From the NCBI GenBank assembly GCA_947624745.1, contig CANQLR010000006.1, positions 1 through 64,000 of the forward strand: DNA of 64,000 bases. Direction: 5' to 3'. The DNA is from an uncultured Clostridia bacterium. Lineage in GTDB: Bacteria > Bacillota > Clostridia > Oscillospirales > Ruminococcaceae. The position numbers and the translations under genes were made by a program. The notes beneath the pieces are model-generated. The model was not told the DNA's origin, made no database searches, and was given only the letters and a program-made list of their open reading frames with translations. Positions 11,284 to 44,150 of this stretch are shown one piece after another (the first letter of the stretch is position 1; each line of letters opens with the position of its first letter).

Positions 11284-11475
11284 GCATGGGGCTTTGCCCT
11301 CCCGCACTTTTCTGCCTTACCGCAGCAAAGTGCAGACCTTGCGCGGCGAAGCCCCGGGCGCGCACGAAGTGCGCGCCAAAGTCCGCGCTTCGCGCGGCCT
11401 TTACGGCGGCAGCAAAGCTGCCGCCTCGGGGCTTCGCCCCCGGTTCCCACACAAACTGTGCCCCCTCCCACCGGG
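11284..11475. repeat. hairpin-array element, copy 1
   Basis: Non-coding. Consecutive near-perfect hairpins: GGCGCGCA-cgaag-TGCGCGCC, CCGCGC-TTC-GCGCGG, GGCGGCAGC-aaa-GCTGCCGCC, GGGGC-TTC-GCCCC and CCCCCTCCC-acc-GGGAGGGGG. The order and the linking sequences match 11785-11965, with different stems at the first position. Apparent ORFs across it exist in several frames on both strands and are composition artefacts. Confidence 0.8.
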
Positions 11476-11520: not shown

Positions 11521-11830
11521 GGTGGGGCTTAAAATAGCATGAGCGAGCTTGCGAGCGAATACCTTATGGCCGCTCACCCGGGTTTCTGCTCGCTCCCTCA
11601 AACTTTTTCAGAAAGTCCGACGAGGGATGAAAGCACAAAGCTTGGACGAACCCGCATGGGCGAAGCCCTAAGCGCGCTACCGCGTGCTTCCCGCCGTTGT
11701 ATTATTATTAGACTTTTGTAAATGTCAAATTTTCTGCCTTTAATAAAGCCCGCACTAACTTTTCCGACGGCGGACAACGCCCGCCTCGCGGGCGTTGGGG
11801 CTTCGCCCCACCCCTGCTTCTCCGCCACAC
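11521..11830. repeat. long non-coding repeat, inverted relative to 43760-44150
   Basis: Begins GGTGGGGCTTAAAATAGCAT with GAGCGAGCTTGCGAGCGAAT next. That block recurs in reverse complement at 43974-44012 and 44099-44147. Further right, the GGGCGAAGCCCTAA hairpin, a TTTTCTGC(C/T)(T/A)TTA-like segment and CGGCGGACAACGCCCGC occur in the same order in the reverse complement of 43760-43940. No gene is visible. Confidence 0.7.
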
Positions 11831-11965
11831 AGTGCAAACCCCGCGTGGCGAAGCCCCGGGCACCCACTTTGCGGGTGCCAAAGGCCGCGCTTTTCGTGGC
11901 CTTTACGGCGGCAGCAGAGCTGCCGCCTCAGAGCTTCGCCCCCGGTTCCCGCGCACCCCACCCCC
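11785..11965. repeat. hairpin-array element, copy 2
   Basis: Contains CAACGCCCGC-ctc-GCGGGCGTTG, GGGGC-TTC-GCCCC, GGCACCC-actttgc-GGGTGCC and GGCGGCAGC-aga-GCTGCCGCC. Linking segments such as GCGTGGCGAAGCCCCGG and CCTTTACGGCGGCAGC match copy 1 (11284-11475). The hairpin after CCCCGG has an entirely different stem from copy 1 but is again perfect. Confidence 0.8.
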
Positions 11966-35455: not shown

Positions 35456-37330
35456 ATGGAGAAATTGAGCATGGAGACCCCCAACCTCACCTCCTACAAC
35501 ATCTCCCGCATCGCCGAGCTTTTCCCAAACTGCGTCACCGAGGCTTTGGACGAGGAGCGCAGCACGCCCGAGCGCAAGGTCTACAAAAAAGCCGTGAATT
35601 TTGAGCTTTTGAAGCAAATGCTCACGCCCGAGGTCATCGACGGCGAGGAGGCTTATGAATTCACATGGGTCGGCAAAAAGGCGGCGATCGTCGAGGCAAA
35701 CAAGCCTATACGCAAGACGCTGCGCCCCTGCCCCGAGGAGAGCAAAAACTGGGACTCGACCGAAAACCTCTACATCGAGGGGGACAATCTCGAAGTGCTG
35801 AAGCTCTTGCAGGAGAGCTACCTTGGCAAGGTGAAGATGATCTATATCGACCCGCCGTATAACACCGGCAACGACTTTATTTATCGCGATGATTTTGCTA
35901 TGGATTCTGAAGAATACGCCGAGGAAAGCGGGCAGCTCAACGAGGAGGGCAACCGCCTTTTCAGGAACACCGACAGCAACGGGCGCTTCCATTCCGACTG
36001 GTGCAGCATGATTTATTCAAGGCTGATGCTGGCGAGGAACCTGCTAACCGACGACGGGGTAATTTTTATTTCGATTGATGATAATGAGCAAAATAATATG
36101 AGAAAAATATGTGACGATGTTTTTGGAGAAAGTAATTTTATAAACCAAGTAATTTGGGTTAGAAACTCTAGTGGCAAAACGGTAAGCAAGCAACTTACAC
36201 AAAATATAGAATATTTATTGATGTACTCAAATTCTACAAATTATATGTTAAATCCTGTTTATAAACCGTTATCGGATTCAACAAAAAAGCTATATTCTAA
36301 AGATGATGGTGATGGAAGGGGCAAGTATCGACTTTATCCACTTCAAAAGCCAGCTTCACCTGGCCCGGAAACAACATACGATTATATCGATAATACCGGT
36401 AAAATATGGAGATGTCCGCCAAAAGGTTGGAGAATGAAACAGAGCAAATTAAAAGCTCTTGAAAATGATGGGCGGTTATATATGGAAGGAACTTCCCTTT
36501 CCGAGAAAGCATACTGGAATGAGCGTGAATCTGAAGGGCGGCTGGCCGATACATACTGGGATGATCTTCCAGAAAACAGTGTAGGAACTAAAGAAGTATC
36601 CATCTTACTTGATGGGAAAGTTGTCTTTAACAATCCAAAACCTATAGCATATTTGGTTAGAATGATAAAAGCACAGACATCTAAGGAAGAAGATGACATT
36701 ATCCTTGACTTTTTCTCCGGCTCTGCCACCACCGCCCACGCGGTAATGCAGCTCAACGCCGAGGATGGCGGGCACCGTAAATTCATCATGGTTCAGCTGC
36801 CCGAGCCCTGCGCCGAGGATTCCGAAGCCTTTAAAGCGGGCTACAAAAACATCTGCGAGATCGGCAAAGAGCGTATCCGCCGAGCAGGCGAAAAGATCAA
36901 AGAAGAGACCGGCGCAGATATCGACACCGGCTTCCGCGTCTTAAAGCTCGATGACGCCAACATGAAGGACGTCTACTATTCACCGGCCGAGTATAATCAG
37001 CAGATGCTTGACGGCCTTGAATCGAACATCAAGGACGACCGCAGCGATCTCGACCTGCTGTTCGGCTGCCTCCTCGATTGGGGTCTGCCGCTTTCGCTGC
37101 CCTATACCTCCGAAAAAATCGACGGCTTCACCGTTCACACCTACAACGGCGGCGACCTTATCGCCTGCTTCGATGAAAATATCTCCGACGCGGCGATCAA
37201 GGAGATTGCCAAGCGCCAGCCTCTGCGCGCTGTTTTCCGCGACAGCAGCTTTAACAGCAGCCCCGAAAAGATAAATGTCGGCGAGATATTCAAAATGCTT
37301 GCCCCTGACACAAGGGTAAAGGTCATTTAA
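35456..37330 (+). CDS. mod: type III restriction-modification methyltransferase (Mod)
   Basis: 624 residues, N6-adenine methyltransferase of the beta class: catalytic motif IV DPPYNTG (from Asp132) comes first, the target-recognition region lies in the middle, and SAM-binding motif I (DFFSGSATTAHAVMQL) comes after it. It recognises the DNA site for both methylation and cleavage. Codons about 202-420 (36060-36715) are visibly AT-rich compared with both flanks, which fits exchange of the recognition domain by recombination. It starts one base after the upstream membrane-protein stop; res follows 12 bases after its stop. Confidence 0.94.
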   Translation: MEKLSMETPNLTSYNISRIAELFPNCVTEALDEERSTPERKVYKKAVNFELLKQMLTPEVIDGEEAYEFTWVGKKAAIVEANKPIRKTLRPCPEESKNWDSTENLYIEGDNLEVLKLLQESYLGKVKMIYIDPPYNTGNDFIYRDDFAMDSEEYAEESGQLNEEGNRLFRNTDSNGRFHSDWCSMIYSRLMLARNLLTDDGVIFISIDDNEQNNMRKICDDVFGESNFINQVIWVRNSSGKTVSKQLTQNIEYLLMYSNSTNYMLNPVYKPLSDSTKKLYSKDDGDGRGKYRLYPLQKPASPGPETTYDYIDNTGKIWRCPPKGWRMKQSKLKALENDGRLYMEGTSLSEKAYWNERESEGRLADTYWDDLPENSVGTKEVSILLDGKVVFNNPKPIAYLVRMIKAQTSKEEDDIILDFFSGSATTAHAVMQLNAEDGGHRKFIMVQLPEPCAEDSEAFKAGYKNICEIGKERIRRAGEKIKEETGADIDTGFRVLKLDDANMKDVYYSPAEYNQQMLDGLESNIKDDRSDLDLLFGCLLDWGLPLSLPYTSEKIDGFTVHTYNGGDLIACFDENISDAAIKEIAKRQPLRAVFRDSSFNSSPEKINVGEIFKMLAPDTRVKVI

Positions 37331-37342
37331 GGGGGCGCGGGC

Positions 37343-40300
37343 ATGAAAATACAGTATAAGCACCAAAAATTTCAGGCAGACGCCGCAAAGGCAGTCGTCG
37401 ATGTTTTCGCGGGTCAGCCATATCTCACCCCGACATATATGATGGACCGCGGCGACGGCACATATCAGATAGGAATGACCGAAGAGGAGGATTATACCGG
37501 CCGGAGCAATCACAAAATTATCCCCGAGCTTAACGATACGCTTATTTTGGAGCATATTCAAAAGATACAGCGCGCCAATCAGATAAAGCCGTCCGACAGT
37601 TTGGAGGGGAGATATAATCTGACGGTCGAGATGGAGACCGGCGTCGGCAAGACATATACATATATTAAGACGATGTATGAGCTGAATAAGCACTACGGCT
37701 GGAGCAAGTTTATCGTTGTCGTCCCGAGCATAGCGATCCGCGAGGGCGTGTATAAATCCTTCGAGACCACTCAGGAGCATTTTGCGGAGGAATATGGCAA
37801 GAAGATACGCTATTTTATATACAATTCCTCCCAGCTCACCGAGATAGACCGCTTTGCCTCCGACAGCTCGATAAATGTCATGATAATAAATTCTCAGGCA
37901 TTTAACGCCAAGGGCAAGGACGCAAGAAGAATTTATATGAAGCTCGACGAGTTCCGCTCCCGTCGGCCGATAGACATTATCGCAAAGACAAACCCCATAG
38001 TTATAATTGACGAGCCGCAGTCGGTCGAGGGCAAGCAGACAAAAGAGAGGCTAAAGGAATTCAACCCGCTTCTGACCCTGCGCTATTCCGCCACTCACAA
38101 AAGCGACAGCATATATAATATGATTTACCGCCTCGACGCTATGGAGGCATATAACAAGCGGCTTGTGAAAAAGATAGCCGTCAAGGGCATTTCCGAGTCG
38201 GGCAGCACCGCCACGAACAGCTATGTTTATCTTGAAAGCATAAATCTTTCCAAAAAAGACCCGACCGCTACCCTTCAATTTGATGTAAAGCAGTCGAGCG
38301 GCGCCAAGCCGAAGAGCAGGATAGTCAAAATCGGGGACAATCTCTATGACTATTCAAACGGGCTTGAAGAATACAAAAATGGCTTTGTCGTGAAGTCAAT
38401 AGACGGCCGCGACGACTCCGTGGAATTTCTGAACGGCATAAAAATCTTTGCGGGAGATGTGATTGGCAAGGTCGATGAAGACCAGCTCCGCAGAATACAA
38501 ATCCGTGAGACTATCCTTTCACATATTCAGCGTGAACGCCAGCTGTTTCATAAAGGTATCAAGGTCCTAAGCCTGTTCTTTATCGACGAAGTAGCGAATT
38601 ACCGTGAGTACGACGCTGCGGGTCAGCCGGTGAACGGAAAGTATGCAAAGATGTTTGAGGAAGAGTATAATGATATTGTCGGAAGTCTGCAAATTGAATT
38701 CGGCGAGGACGATTATATCAAATATCTGGAAAGTATCAGCGCCTCCAAGACCCACGCCGGATATTTCTCCGTAGACGGCAAGGGAAAGATGATCAACAGC
38801 AAGGTCGGAAGAAAAGAAACGACCTCCGACGACGTCAGCGCTTATGAGCTTATCATGAAAAATAAAGAGCTTCTTTTGGACCGCGACCCGAATAAGTCTC
38901 CTGTGAGGTTTATCTTCTCGCACTCTGCCTTGCGCGAGGGCTGGGACAACCCCAACGTGTTCCAAATCTGCACGCTGAAGCAAAGCTCAAGCGAAGTCCG
39001 CAAGCGTCAGGAGGTAGGACGCGGTCTGCGCCTTTGCGTAAATCAGGACGGCGAGCGAATGGATACAAACTCGCTCGGAAACGATGTGCATAACGTCAAT
39101 GTTCTGACGGTTATTGCAAGCGAAAGCTATGAATCCTTCGCAAAGGGCTTGCAAACCGAAATGGCGGAGGCAGTTGCAAACCGTCCTCGCGCAGTCACGG
39201 TGGAGCTTTTTGTCGGCAAGGTCATCAAGGACGAAAACGGCAGCGAGCAGGTCATAGATCAAGACACCGCTTCCGCTATACATTATGATATGATCGTCAA
39301 CGGATATATCGACCGCAAGGGAGCGCTGACTGAAAAGTATCATCAGGATAAAGCTAACGGTGAAATAAAAGTGGCAGAGGAGGTCGCCGATTCCGCAGCG
39401 TCTGTTATGGAAATAATAGATTCAATTTACGACGCCCAAAGTATGCAGCCTGAAAACGCCCGCAGCAATAATGTTGAGCTTCATGTTAATGAAGAAAAAA
39501 TGGCAATGCCCGAATTCAAGGCGCTTTGGTCAAAAATAAATGCCAAATCGGTGTATGTCGTTGATTTTGACACCGATGAGCTTATCCAAAAGTCTATTGC
39601 TTCGCTCGACAGCAAGCTGCGCGTACCAAAGGTTTATTTCCGCGTCGAGACCGGGGCGATGGACACTATCAAGTCCAAAGACGAGCTTTTAGCGGGTGAA
39701 TCATTTGTAAAAGAAAAATCTTCAAATTACGGCATAGAGGTCACGGCAAATTCCAATGTAAAATATGACCTTATCGGGAAGCTTGTTGATGAAACCGGTC
39801 TCACCAGAAAGGCTGTCATTGCAATTCTTAAAGGAATCCAATCGCCTGTCTTTAACCAATTCAAGGACAATCCCGAGGAGTTCATTCTGAAAGCAGCAGC
39901 CTTGATAAACGATCAGAAAGCAACGGCGATCATCGAGCATATAACCTATGACGTCCTTGACGAGCATTACGATACCGACGTATTCACCGAGCCGACAATA
40001 AAAGGCAAGCTGGGTGTGAATGCGATGAAAGCCGATAAGCATCTTTATGACCATATCGTTTATGACTCGAGCAACGAAAGAGATTTTGCGACCGAGTTGG
40101 ACACCAATACCGACGTTGCTGTTTACGTCAAGCTGCCTGACGGCTTCTACATTTCTACTCCTGTCGGTCACTACAATCCCGACTGGGCAATCGCATTTTA
40201 TGAAGGAAAGGTAAAACATATTTATTTCGTAGCCGAAACAAAAGGTTCTATGAGCTCAATGCAGCTGAGGCTTATTGAGGAATCAAAAATTCACTGCGCA

Positions 40301-40390
40301 AGAGAGCATTTCAAAGCCATTTCCGGCGAGAATGTTGTATACGATGTCGTGGATAGCTATAAGACTTTGTTGGAGAGGGTTATGAGATAA
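37343..40390 (+). CDS. res: type III restriction endonuclease (Res)
   Basis: 1015 residues. Superfamily 2 helicase core with Walker A METGVGKTYTYIK (Lys103), DEPQ box IIDEPQSVEG (Asp223), and motif VI-like VRKRQEVGRGLRLCVNQ. The C-terminal nuclease domain has a PD-(D/E)xK set: NPDWAIAF (Asp947) and FVAETKG (Glu965, Lys967). All motifs look intact, so the system should cleave unmodified DNA when complexed with Mod. GGGGGCG is a weak ribosome site before the ATG. A terminator follows. Confidence 0.94.
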   Translation: MKIQYKHQKFQADAAKAVVDVFAGQPYLTPTYMMDRGDGTYQIGMTEEEDYTGRSNHKIIPELNDTLILEHIQKIQRANQIKPSDSLEGRYNLTVEMETGVGKTYTYIKTMYELNKHYGWSKFIVVVPSIAIREGVYKSFETTQEHFAEEYGKKIRYFIYNSSQLTEIDRFASDSSINVMIINSQAFNAKGKDARRIYMKLDEFRSRRPIDIIAKTNPIVIIDEPQSVEGKQTKERLKEFNPLLTLRYSATHKSDSIYNMIYRLDAMEAYNKRLVKKIAVKGISESGSTATNSYVYLESINLSKKDPTATLQFDVKQSSGAKPKSRIVKIGDNLYDYSNGLEEYKNGFVVKSIDGRDDSVEFLNGIKIFAGDVIGKVDEDQLRRIQIRETILSHIQRERQLFHKGIKVLSLFFIDEVANYREYDAAGQPVNGKYAKMFEEEYNDIVGSLQIEFGEDDYIKYLESISASKTHAGYFSVDGKGKMINSKVGRKETTSDDVSAYELIMKNKELLLDRDPNKSPVRFIFSHSALREGWDNPNVFQICTLKQSSSEVRKRQEVGRGLRLCVNQDGERMDTNSLGNDVHNVNVLTVIASESYESFAKGLQTEMAEAVANRPRAVTVELFVGKVIKDENGSEQVIDQDTASAIHYDMIVNGYIDRKGALTEKYHQDKANGEIKVAEEVADSAASVMEIIDSIYDAQSMQPENARSNNVELHVNEEKMAMPEFKALWSKINAKSVYVVDFDTDELIQKSIASLDSKLRVPKVYFRVETGAMDTIKSKDELLAGESFVKEKSSNYGIEVTANSNVKYDLIGKLVDETGLTRKAVIAILKGIQSPVFNQFKDNPEEFILKAAALINDQKATAIIEHITYDVLDEHYDTDVFTEPTIKGKLGVNAMKADKHLYDHIVYDSSNERDFATELDTNTDVAVYVKLPDGFYISTPVGHYNPDWAIAFYEGKVKHIYFVAETKGSMSSMQLRLIEESKIHCAREHFKAISGENVVYDVVDSYKTLLERVMR

Positions 40391-40597: not shown

Positions 40598-40846
40598 ATG
40601 CAGCTTAAGAACCTTCGCGAGGACGGAGACATTCCGCAGAAGAAGCGGGCGGCGCTTTTGCGCGTTCAGCAAAACGCCTATTCGCAATATGAGACTGGAA
40701 AAAGGCAGATATCGATAGAAATGCCTGAAAATTTGTCAATACCGACAATAAAAAAATTACAAAATTTCGCCAAGCCGCAAAAGCTTAATCATTTTGAACA
40801 ACTTTCTGATAGGCCCTCCTTTTCGTCCCGTCGTCGGTCACGATGA
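40598..40846 (+). pseudogene. XRE-type HTH regulator, truncated
   Basis: GAGGTGAGACAG precedes ATG 40598. MQLKNLREDGDIPQKKRAAL and LRVQQNAYSQYETGKRQISI match a Cro/CI HTH, then the usual continuation (ALxxLSxFYxVSxDYLLG) is lost after EMP and the frame runs into the 3' end of the convergent GNAT gene. A truncated relic. Confidence 0.6.
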
Positions 40847-41288
40847 TCCCGCAGCAACAAAACCCGTGCTTATCGAGCAGCCGGAGCATCGGGGCGTTGT
40901 TTTCGTGGGTGTCGATTCGGATGTTTTTGCATAATTTTTGGCAGAAATCGAGCGCCGCGGCGAATATCCCGTGCTGCCCCTCGGCCGCAGCGAGGCGATG
41001 AATGGCGCCGTAGGGCTCGTCGTTCAGCCAGCGCCCGTCGATTACGCGATATGTCGGGTCGTCTCCCGAAATAAAGGCGAAAACCCCGCAGATTTCTCCC
41101 TCGCGAACGATTTTATAAAGCTGTCCGCGCTCGATATCGCTCCTGACGACATCTTCGCTCGGGCGACTTGTTTCCCACTGGTTGGGGTTGCCGTTTTTAC
41201 GCATGAACTCCCGCGCGTAGGCATAAATTGCCAGCACGCTGTCGAGGTCGCTCATGGAGGCTTTGGTGATAATTTGTTCCGGGGACAT
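40785..41288 (-). CDS. GNAT-family N-acetyltransferase
   Basis: 167 residues from MSPEQIITKASMSDLDSVLA. GNAT architecture: N-terminal helices with AREFMRKNGNPNQW, central strands GEICGVFAFISG, then EGQHGIFAAALDFCQKLCKN (pantetheine-loop region) and RIDTHENNAPMLRLLDKHGF, ending with the typical CGIIVTDDGTKRRAYQ strand. The substrate cannot be told. AAAAGGAACTCAAC precedes the ATG. Upstream lies the 41339-41815 hairpin array. Confidence 0.85.
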   Translation of the reverse strand: MSPEQIITKASMSDLDSVLAIYAYAREFMRKNGNPNQWETSRPSEDVVRSDIERGQLYKIVREGEICGVFAFISGDDPTYRVIDGRWLNDEPYGAIHRLAAAEGQHGIFAAALDFCQKLCKNIRIDTHENNAPMLRLLDKHGFCCCGIIVTDDGTKRRAYQKVVQND

Positions 41289-41338
41289 GTTGAGTTCCTT
41301 TTGTGGATTTTATCGGTTTTTTGGTGGATCAAGGCGGC

Positions 41339-41815
41339 GGGGGCGAAGCCCCCACAGTCCGCGAAGCGGACTGTGGGCCGGGAGCCTTCGGATCCCGGCC
41401 GCGCGGAGCGAAGTTCCGCGCAGGGGGTTCGCCCGGTGCGTGAGTCTGCACCTTGCTGCGGGGAGGCGGAATGGTGCGGGGCGAAGCCCCGGGGCGCGCG
41501 AAGCGCGTCGCGCCGAACACGCTTGCGTGTTCGGCGATACTCCTGCGGAGCAGGAGTATCGGGGCTTCGCATGGGCGGGGGCGGTTTGCGAAGGCATGGG
41601 GCGAAGCCCGGGCGGCAGCGAAGCTGCCGCCATGCCCGCCGCGCAAGCGCGGCGGGCGAATGCGCGCTCCGCGCGCATCCGGGCTTCGCCCTCGCACTCA
41701 CCCGCAGACCCCGCGCGGCGAAGCCCCGGTGCGGCAACGAAGCTGCCGCACCGCCTGACCCGCAAGCGGGTCAGGCCTAGGCGCCCTTCGGGCGCCTAGG
41801 GGCTTCGCCCCCATG
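41339..41815. repeat. array of about 18 consecutive hairpins with different stems
   Basis: No gene. Examples in order: GGGGG-CGAAG-CCCCC (41339-41353), CCACAGTCC-gcgaagc-GGACTGTGG, GGCCGGGA-n9-TCCCGGCC (41376-41400), GCGCGGA-n7-TCCGCGC (41401-41421), GCCGAACACGC-TT-GCGTGTTCGGC, GATACTCCTGC-GGA-GCAGGAGTATC, GGCGGCAGC-GAA-GCTGCCGCC, GCCCGCCGCGC-AA-GCGCGGCGGGC, GGTGCGGCA-n7-TGCCGCACC, GCCTGACCCGC-AA-GCGGGTCAGGC, CCTAGGCGCCC-TTC-GGGCGCCTAGG, GGGGC-TTC-GCCCC. Stems are 5-11 bp and mostly perfect, loops are tiny, and hairpins touch or nearly touch. Long apparent ORFs in several frames are by-products of composition. Confidence 0.9.
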
Positions 41816-41902
41816 CGCGACACCCACCCTTTACTGCACTAATTCGCAAAAACCTCTCTCCTATAGCATCCCATCCGCACGCATTTTTGCCTCATTTAAA
41901 TC

Positions 41903-42060
41903 CGTCGCCGAAAGTGACTCCTTATAATTCTGACTTCTGACTTCTCATTTCTGCTATCTGACAGGGCGAAGCCCGTGTGCGCACCCTGTGCGCACCGCTC
42001 ACCGCGCATGCTCGGTGAGCATAGCGGCAGCTCCGCTGCCGCCCGAGCTTCGCCACAACC
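41903..42060. repeat. octamer-plus-hairpin element and further GC hairpins
   Basis: Read leftward, 41968-41903 gives GTCAGAAGTCAGAATTATAA then GGAGTCACTTTCGGCGAC, matching the elements at 43350 and 48493. To its right are GGGC-GAA-GCCC, GGTGCGCA-like and GGCAGC-TCC-GCTGCC stems up to the NUDIX gene end. Confidence 0.65.
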
Positions 42061-42078
42061 TTACCTTTTCTGCAACCC

Positions 42079-42657
42079 CTACTTTCCCTCTCTGCTCTTT
42101 AAAACCTCCCGCGCCTTCATGATCGCAAGCTGCGTCTTGGCGTCGGGGATCTCGTCGCGCAGGACCATGGCGTAAGCCTCATCAAACGGCAGTTTTACGA
42201 CATCTATGAACTCCTCCGGGTCGAGGCTCTGCCCTCCGGAAAAGCTTAGCTCCTCGGCAAGATACATCCAGATCGTCTCGGTGTCATACGCGACGGTGGG
42301 GTAGAGCTTTCCGAGCGGAGTGACATTTTTTGCAACCGCGCCGATCTCCTCGCCGAGCTCGCGCAGGCCGCACTCGAGAGGCTCCTCGCCGGGCTCCTTT
42401 TTGCCCGCGGGGACCTCCAGCAGCACCCTGCCGAACGGATAGCGGAACTGCTTAACCATGTAAATATTTCCATCACCGTCGAGCGGCAGCACGCAGACCC
42501 CGCCCGGGTGCTTTATTACCTCGCGAACGGCCTCGGTGCCGTCCTCCAAAATAACTTTATCACGATACAGCTTTACCACTATACCGTCAAAAATTTGCTC
42601 GCCCGAAATTTTCTTCTCATCAAGATGCGAACAGTCCAAAAAATCACCCCGTTTCAC
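42079..42657 (-). CDS. NUDIX hydrolase, ADP-ribose pyrophosphatase type
   Basis: 192 residues. Complete Nudix box GKKEPGEEPLECGLRELGEE then IGA (G-x5-E-x7-RE-x2-EE-x-G). The flanking pattern (VIKHPGGVCVLPLDGDGNIY; VKQFRYPFGRVLLEVPAG) and length match ADP-ribose pyrophosphatases (NudF-like), which hydrolyse ADP-ribose to AMP and ribose-5-phosphate. The start overlaps the lexA stop by four bases, so it is translationally coupled to lexA and under SOS-type control. Confidence 0.92.
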   Translation of the reverse strand: MKRGDFLDCSHLDEKKISGEQIFDGIVVKLYRDKVILEDGTEAVREVIKHPGGVCVLPLDGDGNIYMVKQFRYPFGRVLLEVPAGKKEPGEEPLECGLRELGEEIGAVAKNVTPLGKLYPTVAYDTETIWMYLAEELSFSGGQSLDPEEFIDVVKLPFDEAYAMVLRDEIPDAKTQLAIMKAREVLKSREGK

Positions 42658-43759: not shown

Positions 43760-44150
43760 AAGGAGAGACTTAGGGCGAAGCCCCAACGCCCACGAAGCGG
43801 GCGTTGTCCGCCGCTCGTAGGTTTTTGTGCCATCCTTATAAATAGCAGAAAATTCGGCATTTTGCAAGCCTTCAAAATTTGGCGAGCGGCGGGAATCGCA
43901 CCCGAATGGGCGCGATTAGGGCTTCGCCCCTGCTCCCTACTCTTTACCCAACTTTGATATAGCCCAGCCTTGCGCATAAGGTATTCGCTTCGCTCATGCT
44001 ATTTTAAGCCCCCACCCCTGCCCCTCCCCGGTGGGGAGGGGTCGCCCGTCGAACGTTACTGAAAATCTACAAGTTTGAGCAGAACCCGGGCGAACCGGCA
44101 TAAGGTATTCGCTCGCCAGCTCGCTCATGCTATTTAAGCCCCACCCCCTC
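43760..44150. repeat. long non-coding repeat with hairpins, inverted relative to 11521-11830
   Basis: Includes GGGC-GAA-GCCC, CAACGCCC-acgaa-GGGCGTTG, ATCGCGCCCATTCGGGTGCGAT (here on the opposite strand) and CCCCTCCCC-ggt-GGGGAGGGG. GGTATTCGCT...CTCATGCTATTTTAAGCC occurs twice (43974-44012 and 44099-44147) and once more inverted at 11521-11568. Confidence 0.75.

Follow-up and report, generated by a model that had tools for sequence, protein, structure and literature searches.

A stretch of less than 500 bp in the genome of an uncultured gut bacterium of the Clostridia raises the question of what keeps a row of DNA hairpins in shape while the letters of their stems differ. It is located at positions 41339-41815 of the window, which herein denotes the whole stretch of 64,000 nucleotides that was analyzed, and was described in an earlier note as a chain of about 18 separate inverted repeats, nearly every one having a stem of its own. 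Counting only non-overlapping and perfect hairpins with stems of at least 6 bp and loops of 2-5 nt, seven are found that cover 156 bp, whereas 1000 dinucleotide shuffles contain on average 1.7 hairpins covering 27.6 bp and at most six hairpins or 95 bp. The comparison with shuffled sequence that the note had called for thus gives 0/1000 shuffles that reach the observed number or coverage. With stems of at least 8 bp, six hairpins are observed as opposed to 0.19 expected and a shuffle maximum of two, and the highest hairpin coverage of any 480-bp stretch in the window lies inside the array. The dense array is therefore real, its hairpins being far above chance. If up to two mismatches per stem are allowed, it consists of 12 inner hairpins distributed over four units and of eight end motifs, the majority of which are self-complementary. 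Hence, the figure of about 18 was close, although the terminal repeats share one sequence, and what was presumed to be a chain of separate hairpins is instead one dispersed repeat in clustered copies, each of which has three hairpins between conserved ends.

The four units have a length of about 92 bp (91-93 bp), and a fifth copy of 90 bp is found outside the range given by the earlier note. All follow one plan. The ends GGCGAAGCCC...GGGCTTCGCC, or near variants of these, are terminal inverted repeats able to form a closing stem of about 10 bp, and they enclose three near-perfect hairpins with loops of mostly 2-3 nt, and this arrangement amounts to a DNA cloverleaf. Folded as single-stranded DNA, the five units of the window (six strands) adopt the cloverleaf with z-scores of -7.2 to -10. 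Since the ends are mostly self-complementary, a unit could alternatively fold into five hairpins in a row. Units 1 and 2 are not among the covariance-model matches listed, though both are part of the training alignment. A type B relative shares the ends and replaces one short hairpin by a longer and sequence-conserved middle arm that is closed by CCGCCG/CGGCGG. Many copies of it occur in this genome; 30 of 41 candidates were aligned, and nhmmer yields 96 matches, 81 of them near full length, in a count that includes both strands and overlapping loci; all lie in this genome and none in other species among the fetched loci searched. The window contains no curated RNA or tRNA and gives 0 matches to Rfam 15 at the gathering score. 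The coordinates are compiled in Table 1.

Table 1 Repeat units and related features of the window. Stems are followed by their loops in lower case letters; z-scores refer to single-stranded DNA folds.
Feature	Position	Strand	Composition	Mismatches	z-score	Model score (bits)
Unit 1	41342..41433	+	closing arms GGCGAAGCCC.. / ..GGGTTCGCC; hairpins CACAGTCCGC-gaa, GGCCGGGAGCC-ttc, GCGCGGAGC-gaa	one in second and third hairpin	-9.95 and -7.20 (cloverleaf on either strand)	
Unit 2	41480..41571	-	CGATACTCCTGC-tcc, CCGAACACGC-aa, CGCGACGCGC-ttc	two in third hairpin	-8.75	
Unit 3	41600..41690	-	ATGCGCGC-gga, GCCCGCCGCGC-tt, GGCGGCAGC-ttc		-8.27	89.5
Unit 4	41717..41809	-	CCTAGGCGCCC-gaa, CCTGACCCGC-tt, CGGTGCGGCAGC-ttc	one in third hairpin	-9.60	89.7
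Unit 5	41965..42054	+	GTGCGCAC-cct, GCTCACCGCGC-at, GCGGCAGC-tcc	one in second hairpin	-7.86	78.9
Probable inserted stretch, 790 bp	41289..42078	.	between 167-aa ORF and NUDIX gene; missing in three species of the genus			
Further type A copy	11345..11438	+				92.1
Further type A copy	11847..11940	+				73.2
Type B relative	11658..11809	-	same ends, two short hairpins, longer conserved middle arm			
Type B relative	43773..43930	+	same ends, two short hairpins, longer conserved middle arm			

Two further observations concern the surroundings of the units. A motif of about 40 bp, similar to GCGCGGGGTCTGCAC..TTG..GCGGTGAGGCAG, lies beside units, e.g. at 41434-41479 and 41691-41716 of the window; it borders 34/80 copies on one side and none on both sides, and in the CGGCA subfamily it is found 13 times on the side of the third hairpin (H3) and 12 times on the side of the first (H1). 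An inversion of the whole element relative to this motif was considered and allows no conclusion, as the motif follows subfamilies. A neighbor of the array at 35456-40390 is a Type III restriction-modification pair (a DNA methylase and a ResIII/RE_endonuc protein) within a stretch of lower GC content.

The same architecture recurs throughout the genome. The outer 13-mer GGGGCGAAGCCCC (left end; its complement on the right) occurs 99 times in forward and 94 times in reverse orientation, and its reversed control 0 times. From 68 fetched loci and the window, 143 distinct end pairs were collected with one mismatch allowed per end; among end pairs of 88-104 bp, 80/83 parse into three hairpins and three fail. 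In the 80 parsed copies, 2283/2338 stem pairs are of the Watson-Crick type. The other 55 comprise 18 G-T, 15 A-C and 22 other mismatches, and thus exhibit no strand bias, a comparison that draws on these 55 only and on copies whose transcription strand is not fixed. The hairpin centers are regularly spaced, with 21.5-25 nt between H1 and H2 and 22-25 nt between H2 and H3 in 74/80 copies (extremes of 20 and 28 nt). Three-nucleotide loops have the form GNA or its complement TNC in 157/188 cases, and half-way forms (GNC or TNA) are rare, namely 5/188 here as well as 1/94 and 0/66 in two relatives described below (the species G018 and the genus g33). In 40/80 copies, the loop of the middle hairpin is 2 nt long, and 39 of those 40 loops are AA or TT. 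The innermost letters of the two ends agree in 72/80 copies, as compared with a mean of 40.3 and a maximum of 53 after re-dealing; L134 and L237 hold units in which GGA at one end is matched by TCC at the other, and L212, where GGA is combined with TTC, is an exception to this end covariation. The loop context C(GAA)G is known from the DNA mini-hairpin d(GCGAAGC), which is exceptionally stable, and GNA is its generalization. For short DNA hairpins of this type, of 7-10 nt, melting at 76.5 and 88.5 °C is reported (PMC10527192).

Among the copies, the fold is preserved to a greater degree than the letters. RNAalifold recovers the closing stem and the three hairpins from 51 aligned copies, the third hairpin being shortened by alignment gaps. 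Of the 30 consensus pairs, 20 are altered on both sides in one or more of the 51 copies, and 98.3% of the paired cells are complementary, versus 78.3% with letters re-dealt and 32-44% with partners slid; the covariation score is 0.508 versus 0.126 in the control. Whether copies or species are compared, stems mostly stay complementary. The observation that the geometry is kept while the stem sequence varies has therefore stood. That nearly every stem differs applies to the inner stems within the array; genome-wide, many stems recur in other copies.

The genome of this gut bacterium contains about 150 copies of the element. The covariance model R1 gives at least 149 matches (150 candidates scored), and the end pattern GGCGAAGCC-N55-85-GGCTTCGCC is found at 155 places here and at 205 in G018, for which R1 counts 109, including places matched on both strands. 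Counting this genome, 17/31 genomes of the genus have R1 matches, two of the 17 yielding just one weak match each, and the other species carry between 0 and about 200 copies with other stems and the same plan. In a sample drawn from the whole order, to which stricter filters were applied and in which only a small number of candidates was scored in each genome, R1 is found in 5/295 genomes and 2/148 genera. Within the family, the end pattern is present in 9/396 genomes and 3/126 genera, the third genus having one unparsed match, and its backwards control occurs once each in four genomes. The closest named relatives by the NUDIX gene next to the array are Clostridia from 'Lapin' samples (rabbit, by name) and Ruminococcus records, and R1 detects 0 elements in 49 NUDIX-gene loci of named relatives. 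Carriage by phages was considered and rejected, as seven end matches in IMG/VR include the three-hairpin interior in 0/7.

With an ends-only bait, 57/58 places in this genome (window and L001-L068) parse into three hairpins versus 1/290 with shuffled interiors; elsewhere, the parse succeeds for 40/41 in G018, 19/21 in g33, and 16/16 in other species of the genus, and the shuffled-interior control over all ends-only sets yields 1/680. Model R1 was used to fetch the loci of G018 and g33 as well as 10 of the 16 from other species, all of which are therefore biased toward the fold, whereas the loci of this genome and the other six of the 16 were fetched by the end 13-mer or around its matches. The 13-mer also retrieved 11 loci from other genomes (L118-L128); six have an end pair and all six parse, and five have no pair. 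For parses scoring at least 22, stem mismatches amount to 8/1057 pairs (39 places) in G018 and 7/762 (23 places) in g33. Both have stem subfamilies of their own, and g33 has its own closing-stem letters as well. Within single loci of G018 (L207, L210, and L215), units recur at a spacing of about 240-350 bp, and neighboring copies in L215 have alike flanks with one loop differing.

Stems and loops change in distinct manners. In 12 copy pairs with flanks at least 88% identical, equal stem and loop lengths and at most six stem differences (the pairs not being independent), divergence amounts to 225/2601 in flanks, 41/106 in loops, and 15/774 in stems, the last figure being lowered by the pre-filtering at six stem differences. 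Loops hence evolve faster than flanks. On short branches, i.e. 97 edges of minimum spanning trees (three sets) along which no more than four pairs change, stems show 112 double changes from one Watson-Crick pair to another, 44 single-arm changes, and one double change with a mismatch. On the same edges, 116 loops are unchanged, 57 show single, 12 double, and 40 other triple changes, 41 are exact reverse complements (nine of them AA/TT), and 25 fall into other classes, mainly length changes. Independent sites would predict more double than triple loop changes. Draws from a random pool give 9-13% double changes and 56-69% triple changes plus reverse complements; since these shares are similar to those observed, loops either change so quickly that they approach saturation or are substituted through exchange. 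Compared with draws from the species' own loop pool, loop reversal does not favor in-place inversion over exchange with another copy, and the short-branch changes, resembling pool draws, do not separate the two.

Exact inversions are nevertheless visible at individual loci. In front of a response-regulator-like gene, the orthologous copies in G000 (the genome studied here), G022, G010, G018, and G004 have TTC as the H1 loop and the one in G028 has GAA, the stem of this hairpin being identical in all six. At a second orthologous locus, L180 and L181 differ in their H3 loop (TTC versus GAA), while 58/58 stem letters and 286/298 flank letters are the same. The end-proximal loops of G018 are strongly polar (46 GNA, 7 TNC), so loops do not flip freely everywhere.

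The array lies between a 167-aa ORF (40785-41288), which has no match in Pfam and NCBIfam and which we take to be acetyltransferase-like, and a NUDIX gene (42079-42657), the two being 790 bp apart. In G017, G018, and G022, the ORF and the NUDIX gene are directly joined, with -3 to 12 bp between the aligned ends; the joined loci are L070, L071, L160, L161, and L163, of which L070/L161 and L071/L160 look like the same genomes. As the flanking genes are joined in three species, the array was probably inserted here, and insertion is the simplest reading of these alignments, although a deletion in the three relatives could produce the same picture. G018 carries many copies elsewhere; thus, its empty site does not stem from a lack of the element. 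The remaining five relatives of the genus with the ORF show no NUDIX gene within the 3.5 kb retrieved, and only 2 of 49 named loci with the NUDIX gene contain the ORF. A search for empty sites within the genome by joined flanks gives six spanning alignments of 1683 and at best one weak candidate (L026 versus L050, about 78%). At another locus, the one with the H1 loop difference described above, one unit (L002 1500-1592; orthologues L130, L131, L132, L133, and L148) is conserved in six species; it is followed after about 50 bp by a TATAAT-like sequence and then by the response-regulator-like gene, both of which were recognized by visual inspection. Being kept upstream of a promoter-like sequence, it suggests that some copies may have acquired a function (co-option).

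Candidates for machinery that would move the element were sought at its ends and in the genomes. Direct repeats of 4-8 bp flank 20/79 copies versus 18.3 with re-dealt flanks, so a target duplication signal is absent at those lengths. Within 12 nt outside the ends of the 79 copies, GTAG/CTAC is found four times and CGTC/GACG twice. An intact Y1 transposase gene was not found in this genome; its one Y1 stretch, which is presumably IS200-like, is broken (L168, G000:C14:2928-3259), and no exact element end occurs in this 3.2-kb locus. Across the genus, a Y1 match is found in 7/17 element-bearing and 1/14 other genomes, and SbcD exceeds its family cut-off in 9/17 versus 2/14, both comparisons being uncorrected for phylogeny. 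The idea that palindromes are tolerated through missing SbcCD is not supported, since SbcD is commoner in element-bearing genomes; in this genome, its matches lie below the cut-off. The suggestion of a hotspot for hairpin nucleases, for which the presence of SbcD is the sole test, likewise gains no support.

Taken together, the element is probably a small, non-coding, and non-autonomous mobile DNA repeat whose recognized form is its fold. As far as the letters can tell, this reading builds on conserved ends that can pair, three hairpins, varied complementary stems, and dispersed, patchy copies that are amplified in some species, as well as on three species with a likely empty site and on two-state loops with exact inversions over the same stem. 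During replication or under supercoiling, a unit would be extruded from the duplex, either as hairpins or as a cloverleaf with four arms, and a putative trans-acting factor would move or copy it by recognizing the ends and/or the fold, which would leave the sequence of the inner stems free. The hairpin arms may be kept matched by arm-to-arm copying (fold-back template switching), and selection for a still-movable fold may contribute; the two predict much the same stems. The same copying events, or exchange with the hairpin of another copy in either orientation, would be the source of inverted and substituted loops. On the basis of reconstructed histories, template switching in replication hairpins has been proposed to flip loops and to alter the two arms together (PMC8794818), and the spacers of bacterial inverted repeats are reported to gather more substitutions than the arms (PMC13155455). 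The frequent occurrence of loop inversions and paired stem changes within a dispersed repeat favors a mobile repeat at the DNA level. A stronger version, which we regard as possible but on balance doubtful, holds that the heritable identity of the element is its shape and not its sequence, i.e. a four-armed junction recognized by its fold and end loops. In that case, both arms would be rewritten together by fold-back copying, so every arm would be free to take new letters, and the loops would invert in the same events.

Two other readings address the complementary stems without a mobile unit. A structured RNA element, be it for mRNA 3'-end protection, a terminator, or a small RNA, would place the stems under selection in the transcript, and the strong covariation, the mostly intergenic position of the copies (by home-made gene calls), and the unit that six species share directly before a promoter-like sequence agree with it. 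We nonetheless regard it as unlikely: G-T mismatches are not in excess over A-C (at the low power of 55 mismatches), half of the middle hairpins have 2-nt loops, loops outpace the flanks in divergence, and the window has no Rfam match. The gene contexts also resemble the background, since 78 copies are found 23 times in tandem, nine in convergent and seven in divergent gaps (33 lack a gene call on one side and six overlap a predicted ORF), as compared with 18, 5, and 6 among the gaps of the window. The earlier lead of 3'-end protection gains no support from these gene contexts, nor from the mismatches, in which no strand preference is seen. Alternatively, palindromes could arise and be perfected locally by template switching at replication hairpins and spread by ordinary duplication only. 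The writing of palindromes by template switching, as the earlier note had considered, is a good candidate in view of the loop inversions at orthologous loci, and the excess of paired over single-arm stem changes and the duplicates of larger blocks in G018 are also in line with it. As a complete account without mobility it is quite unlikely, because the same ends, the same hairpin number, and a similar spacing recur at many dispersed sites and because an empty site exists between otherwise joined genes. The array pattern is evidence of copying and insertion, beyond mere local palindrome writing.

Conventional modes of transposition fare no better. A miniature element of the MITE type, mobilized by a DDE transposase acting on inverted ends, would fit the inverted ends of about 10 bp and the short, dispersed, and non-coding nature of the copies; it would leave the three near-perfect hairpins unexplained and conflicts with the lack of a 4-8 bp target duplication signal in 79 copies, and is thus very unlikely. 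For REP/REPIN elements moved by a Y1 (RAYT) transposase, the high number of intergenic palindromes, the Y1 stretch in the genome, and the higher frequency of Y1 in element-bearing genomes can be cited. This reading is hardly credible given the scarcity of the GTAG and CGTC tags around the ends, the broken state of the local Y1 stretch with no exact element end beside it, and the 10/17 element-bearing genomes (including G020, G010, G005, and G003) that have no Y1 match. The earlier statement that these are no ordinary REP or BIME repeats is accordingly correct, and the preferred reading remains a mobile repeat recognized by its fold.

Several known systems resemble the element in part. MITEs are short, non-coding, and dispersed, with inverted ends; here, by contrast, no 4-8-bp target duplication is detected, and the interior fold is conserved more than the sequence. 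The bcr1 repeats of the Bacillus cereus group likewise are short mobile repeats with a predicted conserved secondary structure. However, they are conserved in sequence and accompanied by target duplication, whereas neither interior sequence conservation nor a 4-8-bp target duplication is seen here. The attC site of integrons is a recombination site recognized by its structure, with integrase R/L boxes and extrahelical bases; the stems of the present element are mostly perfect. REP, BIME, and REPIN repeats with TnpA-REP share high-copy intergenic palindromes with short loops, stems that differ between families, and recorded complementary changes. REPs are described as 20-50-nt palindromes with a GTAG or CGTC tag, and in one REP system a reversed loop severely affected cleavage (PMC8266576, PMC3733652). 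The present element differs by having three hairpins within a closing stem, no tag, both loop orientations, and no intact Y1 gene found.

The palindromes of Volvox organelles (PMC2670323) and the GC clusters of yeast mitochondria (PMC4478555) are likewise selfish-looking, intergenic, nested, and merged in the passages available. Volvox loops are frequently TAAA or TTTA, which is one sequence in both orientations (PMC2670323), and the four between-species differences of GC42 are all located in loops (PMC4478555). Unlike the present element, they reside in organelle DNA and show, within those passages, no fixed three-hairpin plan with a conserved outer stem; the yeast clusters moreover are flanked by short direct repeats (PMC4478555). 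Template-switch mutations likewise invert loops over unaltered stems and change paired stem letters in a single step, though loop inversions are described there as very rare (PMC8794818), whereas here exact reverse-complement loops are common and occur within a repeat family. In the open-access literature, as distinct from subscription papers, no description of a three-hairpin cloverleaf with varied stems and two-state loops was recognized, and open-access papers containing an element end string deal, by title, with other subjects. Small, palindromic, and selfish intergenic repeats are known as REPs, MITEs, and organelle palindromes, a kind to which the three-hairpin cloverleaf belongs.

Compensatory evolution of hairpins is usually read as selection on RNA, and the element cautions that strong covariation can come from processes at the level of DNA. 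With its roughly 150 copies and the related species, in which loops flip and stems change in pairs, it provides a natural data set for distinguishing between template switching, the exchange of hairpins, and selection acting on a fold of the DNA. Should recognition by fold hold true, the genome would harbor a bacterial mobile repeat of a kind that sequence-based annotation can miss.
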